A stretch of 64,000 bases of DNA, taken from assembly GCF_003992725.1 (NCBI RefSeq), contig NZ_RZNF01000012.1:62001-126000 (forward strand), given 5' to 3'. The first letter of the stretch is position 1. Each line of letters begins with the position of its first letter. A program made the position numbers and the translations under genes. The DNA is from Rhodomicrobium lacus (GTDB lineage Bacteria > Pseudomonadota > Alphaproteobacteria > Rhizobiales > Rhodomicrobiaceae). The notes beneath the pieces are model-generated. The model worked only from the letters and a program-made list of their open reading frames with translations, was not told where the DNA came from and searched no databases. Below are positions 61,614 to 64,000 of the stretch, piece after piece.

Positions 61614-62528
61614 ATGCAGATCTATCTCCCCATTGCCGAATTGCCGGTCAACGTGCTGCTCATGCTCGGGCTCGGCGGCGCGGTCGGCTTCCTGTCCGGG
61701 ATGTTCGGCGTTGGCGGCGGATTTCTCATGACCCCGCTTCTGATCTTCGCGGGGGTGCCGAGTGCCGTTGCGGTCGCGACGGGTGCAAACCCGCTCATCG
61801 CGTCATCGATCACCGGTACGATCGCGCAGGCGCGACGCAAGAACCTCGACACGAAGCTCGGCCTGTTTCTGCTCGGCGGCGGCGCGGTCGGCGCTTTCGG
61901 GGGCGTGCTCATCATTCGCTATTTGCGCCAGATCGGACAAGTAGACCTGTTCGTTTCGCTTCTCTATGTCGTTTTCATGGGCGCGGTCGGCTCCATGATG
62001 CTGGTCGAGAGCCTGCGCGCGCTACGCAAGGTGAGGCGCGGCCAGCCATCTGCGAAGCGCACGGGGCGGCACGGCTGGTTGCACGGCCTGCCCTTCAAGA
62101 CGCGCTTTCCGGCATCGAAGCTCTATATCAGCGCCATCCCGCCCGTACTGGCGGGCGTGCTCGTCGGCGTGATGTCCGGCGTCATGGGCGTCGGCGGCGG
62201 ATTCATCCTCGTGCCCATCCTCATCTATCTCCTGCATGTGCCGACCAATGTCGCGGTTGGCACCTCCCTGTTCCAGATCATCTTCGTCAGTGCCATCACG
62301 ACGGTCCTTCAGGCCGCCATGAATCAGACCGTCGACATTGCGCTCGCCCTCCTGTTGATGCTCGGCGGCGCGTTCGGCGCGCAGGTCGGTGCGGCAGCAG
62401 GGCAGAAGCTTCGGGCGGAGGAACTGCGGCTCTTGCTGGCGCTGCTCGTGCTCGCGGTCGGCCTGAGGCTTGGCGTCAATCTTGTCATGCCAGGCGAAAT
62501 CTTCAGCGTCACGAGCGCCGGGTTCTGA
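61614..62528 (+). CDS. TauE/SafE-family sulfite or anion exporter
   Basis: This is a 304-residue inner-membrane exporter with two repeated halves. The first has GGAVGFLSGMFGVGGGFLMT at residues ~18-37 and the second GVMSGVMGVGGGFILVPIL at ~184-202, a duplicated signature of TauE/SafE. It moves sulfite or sulfonate-derived anions out of the cell. The TIGR02186-type gene starts one base after its stop, a pairing seen in other Rhizobiales. Confidence 0.9.
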   Translation: MQIYLPIAELPVNVLLMLGLGGAVGFLSGMFGVGGGFLMTPLLIFAGVPSAVAVATGANPLIASSITGTIAQARRKNLDTKLGLFLLGGGAVGAFGGVLIIRYLRQIGQVDLFVSLLYVVFMGAVGSMMLVESLRALRKVRRGQPSAKRTGRHGWLHGLPFKTRFPASKLYISAIPPVLAGVLVGVMSGVMGVGGGFILVPILIYLLHVPTNVAVGTSLFQIIFVSAITTVLQAAMNQTVDIALALLLMLGGAFGAQVGAAAGQKLRAEELRLLLALLVLAVGLRLGVNLVMPGEIFSVTSAGF

Positions 62529-62529
62529 C

Positions 62530-63339
62530 ATGCGAGGCATTATCGCCGCAGTTGCGCACGAACTGAGACGGATCGCCCTTCCGGCCACGCTCGCAATGGC
62601 CGCATTCAGCACCGGCGCAGCGGCCTCGGCAAACCTCATCGAGGCGGGCGCCGCGCAAAATCAGTTCTACATCGAACCCAGCTATGACGGCACGAGCATC
62701 GTGCTGTTCGGCGCCGTCGACCGGGACCGGCTGAAGAGCGAGCCTTTCGACGTCGCGGTGACGCTTCGCGGCCCCGTTCAGCCTGTCATCGTCTGGAAAA
62801 AGGATCGGCGCGCGGGATTGTGGGTGAACTCGCAACGCCTGATCTTCGACGGCGTACCGAACTATTTCTCCGTTCTTTCCACGCGCCCCCTCGGCGAGAT
62901 CGCGCCCGTTGAGGAACGCGACAGGTTCGAGTTGGGGATCGACGTCTTGAGTCTGCCGATTCGCGACGAACAGAAGAACCCGCCGTCGAAACTCACCCGG
63001 TCGGAATTCGAGGCGGCGCTCATACGTCAGAAGAAGGCAGCGGGGCTGTTCGTGGAGGAGGCGCGCGCCATCGACTTTTTCGGCGTCAGCCTGTTCAGGA
63101 CGAAGACATTCCTGCCCGCTGCCGCCGGACCGGGGCTTTACGTGGCGCATTTCTATGTGCTGCAGGGGGGAAAGGTTGTCGGCGATGCGACGGCGCGCAT
63201 AAGGTTGCGCAAGATCGGGATCGAGGCGAGGGTTTCGTCTGCGGCCTCGGAACATCCGTGGCTTTACGGGGTCATCGCGGTTGTGCTCGCGGCGGCGGTC
63301 GGTGGCGCAACGTCGTTTCTGACCGGTCGCAGGACATAA
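62530..63339 (+). CDS. TIGR02186-type membrane-anchored periplasmic protein
   Basis: This is a 269-residue protein with a signal peptide (MRGIIAAVAHELRRIALPAT, cleaved after AAASA), a periplasmic beta-rich domain (QNQFYIEPSYDGTSIVLFGA) and a C-terminal membrane helix (WLYGVIAVVLAAAVGGATSF). Its place straight after the TauE/SafE gene is characteristic. It is thought to be an accessory of the exporter, but its activity is unknown. Confidence 0.8.
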   Translation: MRGIIAAVAHELRRIALPATLAMAAFSTGAAASANLIEAGAAQNQFYIEPSYDGTSIVLFGAVDRDRLKSEPFDVAVTLRGPVQPVIVWKKDRRAGLWVNSQRLIFDGVPNYFSVLSTRPLGEIAPVEERDRFELGIDVLSLPIRDEQKNPPSKLTRSEFEAALIRQKKAAGLFVEEARAIDFFGVSLFRTKTFLPAAAGPGLYVAHFYVLQGGKVVGDATARIRLRKIGIEARVSSAASEHPWLYGVIAVVLAAAVGGATSFLTGRRT

Positions 63340-63413: not shown

Positions 63414-64000
63414 TCAGGCCGCGCGGTCTTCCATGAGCTGCGGCGACGCCACCGGATTCACGCGCTCCTGCGCGATGAACCAGACATAAAGCCCGCCCTG
63501 CCCGAGAAGCGGGTCGAACGCGGAATTCAGCACATTGTTGCCGTGCGAGTAGTCGCCGAGCGACGGCAGCACCATGCGCATGCCGTTCGAGACGAAGCAG
63601 CGGCCGCGCACCATATGCCCGTAATGCGAAACCTGCGCGACCGGATGCAGGCCGCCTGCGATCTCGTTCGCGATGGGCGCGCGCACAGGCTCACCGCGAA
63701 ACTTGATGCCGCCCAGCATGAGCTGCGGCACGAGCGTTCCACCCACGTCGGGCGTCTCGGTAAGGTCGTTTGTCACCCAATACCAGTCGCGGCCTTCCAT
63801 CATGTCCTGAAGCCAGTCGCGCTGATGATGGGCCAGCGCACAGGATGAATGCACCGCGAAGCTGTTGCCGAGCGCCACCACGCGAAGCGGGTCGTAGCGG
63901 TCAAGCGCGTCTTCAAGCTTTTCAAAGGCGGATGCCTGATCGTAAGGCGGAAGGACGACGTCATCGCCCTCAAGGTATGAGCATTGAGACAGCTTCAGGT
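63414..64000 (-). CDS. PdeM-like metallophosphoesterase-fold protein, metal ligands lost (5' truncated by window edge)
   Basis: This protein fits the ligase-associated DNA-damage phosphoesterase PdeM by scaffold (LPPYDQ, LGGIKFRGEP, AGGLHPVAQV, FVSNGMRMVLPSLGDYS). The visible part is about 195 residues up to the stop, and the N-terminus lies beyond 64000. The metal motifs are altered at every point I can check. DxH is now x-L-K, GDxxHD is GNSFAVH, GNHD is TNDL, the His before EP is Gly, and GHxH is GGLH. This implies no phosphoesterase activity. It keeps the fold, so it may be a binding or scaffold protein. The call rests on motif reading by eye. Confidence 0.65.
   Translation of the reverse strand, partial: LKLSQCSYLEGDDVVLPPYDQASAFEKLEDALDRYDPLRVVALGNSFAVHSSCALAHHQRDWLQDMMEGRDWYWVTNDLTETPDVGGTLVPQLMLGGIKFRGEPVRAPIANEIAGGLHPVAQVSHYGHMVRGRCFVSNGMRMVLPSLGDYSHGNNVLNSAFDPLLGQGGLYVWFIAQERVNPVASPQLMEDRAA

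Follow-up and report, generated by a model that had tools for sequence, protein, structure and literature searches.

A putative pseudonuclease of the PdeM/MPE fold kept in Rhodomicrobium and its family, with a recurrent upstream GANTC element

The closest described relative of the gene reported here is the P. putida nuclease MPE, a Mn-dependent ssDNA endonuclease encoded beside the Lhr-Core helicase (gene pair described in PMC7437997). Archaeal DP1 belongs to the same superfamily, as do its relatives, the B-subunits of eukaryotic polymerases, which are described as having lost the motifs and have been proposed to act as a scaffold (PMC4996933). A third point of reference concerns promoters. 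In the consulted portion of another report, TGATTCG was proposed as an extended GANTC motif for GcrA-activated promoters in Caulobacter, while no preference for the extended motif was described for Brevundimonas (PMC7987155). Within the open-licence literature, we found nothing that joined metallophosphoesterases with bacterial pseudoenzymes and nothing that linked GcrA/GANTC to metallophosphoesterases, and none of the reports on bacterial pseudoenzyme nucleases in DNA repair was on PdeM, as judged by titles and the starts of abstracts.

The window analyzed in this study is a stretch of 64,000 bases, located at positions 62001-126000 on a contig of 1.72 Mb in the 3.88 Mb genome of Rhodomicrobium lacus. 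A frame on the minus strand (63414-63998) runs on past the window end; based on this frame, a TIGR04123 match and alignments, the region 63414..64000 was assigned to the C-terminal 195 codons, or four fifths, of a gene that we designated pseudo-PdeM. The N-terminus, which was missing from a preliminary description of the window made from its letters, was recovered: the start is an ATG at about 64145 (L003:1415-2146), approximately 145 bases outside the window, and the whole gene encodes 243 amino acids. The protein showed 95% identity to those of the nearest named relatives, Rhodomicrobium udaipurense and Rhodomicrobium sp. Az07. The match to TIGR04123 (PdeM) covered residues 24-225 with a score of 120.2 bits (7.8e-35), short of the 150 bits set as the cut-off for the family. 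Beyond this, NCBIfam gave a single, weak match to TIGR00024 (18.4 bits, E 0.0014), and no Pfam family matched the protein at E 1. The AlphaFold2 model, for which an alignment of 41 rows was used, had a pLDDT of 82 and a pTM of 0.84. Foldseek revealed the P. putida nuclease MPE as both the top match (6nvp; E 1.2e-13, TM 0.66 on the query and 0.80 on the target) and the second match (6nvo; E 8.3e-12, TM 0.79 on the target), and pseudo-PdeM is thus predicted to adopt the MPE fold. A low-confidence loop in the model was rejected as a mark of catalytic death, because the model of a live PdeM showed the same weak loop.

The metal site was compared at seven ligand positions, taken from the related DP1 fold as given in the excerpted source (PMC4996933), in an alignment of 81 sequences. 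In pseudo-PdeM, these positions are D49, K51, N94, N126, G151, G165 and H167, so that three of the seven ligand letters are kept (D49, N126 and H167), N126 being uncertain since a residue is missing there. In particular, the DxH motif reads D49-L-K51 with the Asp kept, GDSFHD reads G-N94-S-F-A97-V with A97 in place of its His, GNHD reads T-N126-D127-L with D127 in place of its His (G005 carries His at this position), RHEP reads R-G151-E-P, and GHxH reads G-G165-L-H167 with the second His kept. The binuclear ligand set (D-x-H, GD, GN, H, GHxH) is therefore incomplete. The preliminary description had proposed a PdeM scaffold with every metal motif broken; the scaffold and the alteration of the motifs held, with four of seven letters lost, whereas complete loss did not, as shown by the Asp of DxH and the second His of GHxH. 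It had also named a sequencing error as a possible cause, which is unlikely because three other Rhodomicrobium genomes (95% identity) carry identical letters at all seven positions.

Ligand loss is graded within the family: G002 and G003 retain four of seven, namely those of D-x-H and GD and the final His, while three remain in the window's genome and G005-G007 and two in G001 and G004. All seven ligands were present in 67 of the 81 sequences and six in 2, while 12 had five or fewer, namely the 8 family copies and those of G052, G032, G337 and G349; we refer to these as dead copies. The 65 sequences from outside the family, a selection from all matches that gives no frequency, comprised 59 with all seven ligands, 2 with six and 4 with five or fewer. 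Pseudo-PdeM very probably can no longer hold a two-metal centre, and we infer the loss of catalysis from these residues. An altered enzyme, in which a rebuilt site would use a different metal or one-metal or metal-free chemistry, would agree with D49 being invariant in 9 aligned dead sequences and with H167 being kept in 8/8 family copies. However, position 51 is K, Q, C, D or a gap depending on the lineage (His is kept in G002 and G003), position 94 is N, E, S or the original D, and the alignments revealed no new conserved ligand set, so that we consider such an enzyme very unlikely.

The frame of the dead copy is open in all eight family genomes, and the copy was found in all four family genera sampled. 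Among four close Rhodomicrobium genomes (six pairs), the dN/dS of the dead copy was 0.034-0.081, compared with 0.099-0.170 for the intact PdeM of the same genomes, the latter being taken over the homologous core since stop-to-stop frames inflate it to 0.16-0.25. Against the more distant G004, the values were 0.225-0.241 for the dead copy, close to 0.222-0.352 for the intact copy with its frames taken from stop to stop. Judged by its presence throughout the family, the open frames and these ratios, the dead copy is not a pseudogene and is under purifying selection. The earlier suggestion that catalysis has died while a non-enzymatic function is retained is well supported by the presence of the gene in 8/8 genomes, the open frames, the low dN/dS and the intact fold model.

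If pseudo-PdeM were a relic, drifting towards a pseudogene since its takeover by a second PdeM set, it would be redundant with the intact copy and would show stepwise ligand loss across the family, as observed. Genus g113 may provide a case of this kind. There, G337 keeps 5/7 ligands and G349 3/7, while the other four g113 genomes found keep 6 or 7, and the dN/dS of the dead pair is 0.168. The helicase near pdeM is decaying in this genus: it has 858 amino acids in G250 and G324, only a 109-residue end (69% identity) in G361, and short, weak scraps (E 5e-6 to 0.008) in G267, G337 and G349. Ligand loss in g113 may thus be young, or the gene may be decaying. For the family, however, a dN/dS below that of the intact copy, the eight open frames in all four genera and an upstream element kept in 7/8 genomes make a relic highly improbable.

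An intact PdeM, which the preliminary description had suggested looking for, was found elsewhere in the genome (G000:C2:314358-315008; 187.7 bits with TIGR04123, all motifs present), and the dead copy and an intact PdeM co-occur in 8/8 family genomes. The ligase (TIGR04120) and the Lhr-type helicase (TIGR04121) were also over the cut-off in 8/8 family genomes; those of the window's genome are located elsewhere on contig C12. In G001, G002 and G003, the helicase is the direct neighbour of the intact PdeM. By coordinates, none of the eight family genomes has its ligase or helicase next to the dead gene, which differs in this from PdeM genes in the ligase-helicase setting. A check for ligase and helicase neighbours beyond 64000 had been suggested; we found there a HerA-like ATPase gene and a gene for a 338-amino acid protein.

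Outside the family, the dead copies of G052 and G032 keep 2/7 ligands each. Neither genome had a PdeM over the cut-off, an Lhr-type helicase over the cut-off or a ligase match, at an estimated completeness of 99% for G052 (in about 550 contigs) and 100% for G032. These results bear on whether pseudo-PdeM modulates the ligase-helicase-PdeM set, for example as a decoy or as a dimer partner of the intact PdeM or helicase. The presence of the whole set in 8/8 family genomes agrees with such a role, as do live relatives in G009, f2 and f31 that adjoin the helicase; yet the dead homologues persist in G032 and G052, the dead gene is separated from ligase and helicase throughout the family, and the family's intact PdeM is placed in a remote clade. 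We therefore consider modulation of this set unlikely. The specialised regulator of the DNA-repair set that the preliminary description had envisaged was not supported, since ligase, helicase and intact PdeM are all encoded away from the dead gene and the two outside genomes gave no sign of them at these thresholds; the case against such a regulator is weaker within the window's own family, where all three occur.

A search of the order revealed a match at 1e-5 in 253 of 297 genomes, with two matches in the eight family genomes and in three others. The trees placed the dead family clade with the live PdeM of G009 (support 93/78 in a 74-row tree and 80/79 in a 44-row tree), and the eight intact copies from these genomes formed a separate clade elsewhere (100/99, 74-row tree). 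These placements suggest that the usual PdeM of the order is the most likely ancestor of the dead gene and that the intact family copy is a divergent second copy. The first tree, with 74 rows and lacking the g113 dead pair, pointed to separate origins for the family and the G032/G052 copies; the later tree, of 44 chosen rows, was accompanied by AU tests. Grouping all 12 dead rows into a single clade was rejected (p-AU 0.00015), while one clade of the 10 dead rows outside g113 (family, G032 and G052) was not (p-AU 0.113). Since one clade of all dead rows was rejected, the order has seen at least two ligand losses; the best tree shows three, and we limit the claim to at least two. L115 and L112 are located on long branches and were paired in the 74-row tree (98/74) but did not form a supported clade in the 44-row tree.

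On the downstream side, the convergent neighbour of pseudo-PdeM (62530..63339, plus strand) has a tblastn homologue near the dead gene in G003 (37% identity) and G002 (29%), and no tblastn match in the stretches around the dead gene in G001 and G004. Next to it on the same flank is a gene (61614..62528, plus strand) whose product we take to be a TauE/SafE-like permease and whose tblastn matches showed 61% identity in G003 and 59% in G002. This flank is old, because the homologue of the convergent neighbour is also near the dead gene in G002 and G003. A 33-base near-repeat (88% identity, opposite strand) was observed between window positions 63275-63307 and G000:C12:78353-78385.

On the other side lie, both on the minus strand, a gene for a 1018-amino acid protein with an N-terminal AAA domain and a C-terminal HerA/DndH-like ATPase (L003:2380-5436; PADLOC DndH 1.1e-28) and, upstream of it, the gene for the 338-amino acid orphan protein, which is without a convincing family match (L003:5447-6463). 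They possibly form a defence or DNA-transport pair. Both genes adjoin pseudo-PdeM in the window's genome, G005, G006 and G007 and were not found in the stretches around the dead gene in G001-G004; a conserved operon of pseudo-PdeM with the ATPase was therefore rejected. Comparison of the neighbourhoods of the family genomes revealed no family-wide conserved neighbour gene that would point to a partner. In G004 alone (L030:1656-10040), the dead gene is near uracil-DNA glycosylase-like and imuA-imuB-dnaE2-like genes, which were named by eye.

We found that an upstream element, CGAATCAG[G/T]CAT, which contains a GANTC site, recurs before the dead genes. CGAATC(A/G)G(T/G/A)CA is located 109-124 bases before the start in 7/8 family genomes, although their upstream neighbours differ; the element is absent from G006, whose upstream stretch differs. 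The fuller pattern with GTAAC occurs once per genome in 6/8 family genomes, always at the dead gene, and its reversed control gave 0, whereas the short core CGAATCAGNCA is not rare, with 4 sites in the window's genome vs 1 for the control. CGAATCAGTCA also precedes the dead genes in G052 and G032. None of the eight intact family copies has the element within 350 bases upstream, although L018 carries CGAATCA near the start of its match. Among 58 homologues outside the family, 15 had no CGA[AC]TC[AG] in the upstream stretch examined, and some of the matches in the other 43 were at unrelated places. As a counter-example, L184 (G273) is a live PdeM without the upstream element and without a helicase in the stretch examined.

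In live relatives with a helicase-pdeM pair, the element lies inside the helicase 3' end, where it codes for G-R-I-R-H or alike (e.g. L180), and it is therefore older than the free-standing gene. At the element column of 49 helicase ends, counted with one row per genome, Arg was present in 33, and 26 of these used CGA; 7 used another Arg codon, and 16 ends were without Arg. Among the 39 Arg columns compared, the next highest CGA share was 0.12 and the median 0.04. Counted by family, CGA was used in 12 of the 17 having Arg at this column. An earlier codon set gave CGA in 29/42 vs 164/3319 of other Arg codons, with three genomes counted twice; the binomial p of 1.8e-28 derived from this set includes the double-counted genomes and ignores relatedness. 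A second helicase column had GANTC in 29/49 rows vs 27 for the element, which is explained by the conserved protein there, mostly Glu/Asp-Ser (E or D in 44/49, S in 47/49). As this column has as many GANTC sites, we base the case for the element on its rare codon and give no weight to GANTC counts. In all six g113 loci, CGAATCAGGCATA(G/A)T is unchanged while the helicase decays. A mere coding relic of the helicase is thus disfavoured by the codon bias, by survival through helicase decay and by the place of the element upstream of genes without a helicase nearby.

CGAATCA, which is present in 6/8 family genomes, is the reverse complement of the extended motif TGATTCG (YGAKTCK); CGAATCG of G004 also fits YGAKTCK, and G006 has none. 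Three bases on from this motif, CATAGT or CATAAT could be a -10 box. On these sequence features, the element looks like a GcrA/CcrM-type promoter, which we put forward as a hypothesis. LexA/SOS control was rejected because the stretches examined upstream contained no GTTC-N7-GTTC; there were looser or more remote matches in the window's genome (GTTT-N8-GTTT), in G005 (GTTC-N8-GTTC) and in G001 (GAAC-N7-GAAC, 645 bases before the stretch end), and a single perfect LexA box in L003 is within chance and lies inside the ATPase gene.

Taken together, pseudo-PdeM is probably a pseudonuclease of the PdeM/MPE fold that is kept for a role needing only the folded body. It most likely acts by binding, because the frame persists despite the missing ligands and, in two genomes, apparently despite the absence of its partners. 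The best reading is that, besides catalysis, PdeM serves a second role, possibly timed to the cell cycle, which does not depend on cutting and can persist after catalysis and partners have gone. In the ancestral helicase-pdeM pair, the 3' end of the helicase gene would have contained the pdeM promoter, and pdeM would have stayed under this embedded promoter after loss or replacement of the helicase. Selection for cutting would then have ended, while selection for the second function, as a DNA- or protein-binding scaffold, would have continued. The GANTC site and the extended TGATTCG motif suggest that expression may be GcrA/CcrM-dependent and cell-cycle-timed. Extended to the whole order, the proposal that PdeM has a second catalysis-independent function with a GANTC promoter within the helicase gene, and that helicase loss, with the promoter left in place, leads repeatedly to pseudoenzymes keeping only this function, is tentative, and we would not give it quite even chances. 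If it is true, the dead copies separate nuclease cutting from the other role by a natural experiment, strains already without cutting give access to what else a repair nuclease does, and the embedded GANTC element would be a testable cell-cycle promoter that is placed inside the coding sequence of another gene by means of rare codons.

Compared with known systems, pseudo-PdeM resembles PdeM and the P. putida MPE (TIGR04123; 6nvo, 6nvp) in fold, in length and in homology over residues 24-225, and it groups with the order's PdeM in the tree; it differs in scoring under the family cut-off, in the loss of four of seven ligand letters and in its location outside the ligase-helicase cluster. The Lhr-Core helicase-MPE pair, as described in PMC7437997, is retained in live relatives in f2, f31 and G009, whereas no helicase is present at the pseudo-PdeM locus. 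The eukaryotic DNA polymerase B-subunits, which are inactivated relatives of archaeal DP1, share the calcineurin-like phosphoesterase fold and the loss of catalytic motifs, and Pol zeta and delta entries were among the weak Foldseek matches (E 0.02-0.08, TM about 0.3). They are far larger, contain an OB domain and are part of a polymerase, so the likeness is one of analogy and not of membership. A pseudoenzyme of a known fold is nothing new in kind; it is the recurrence, the partner-free survival and the helicase-embedded element that set this case apart and warrant experiment.
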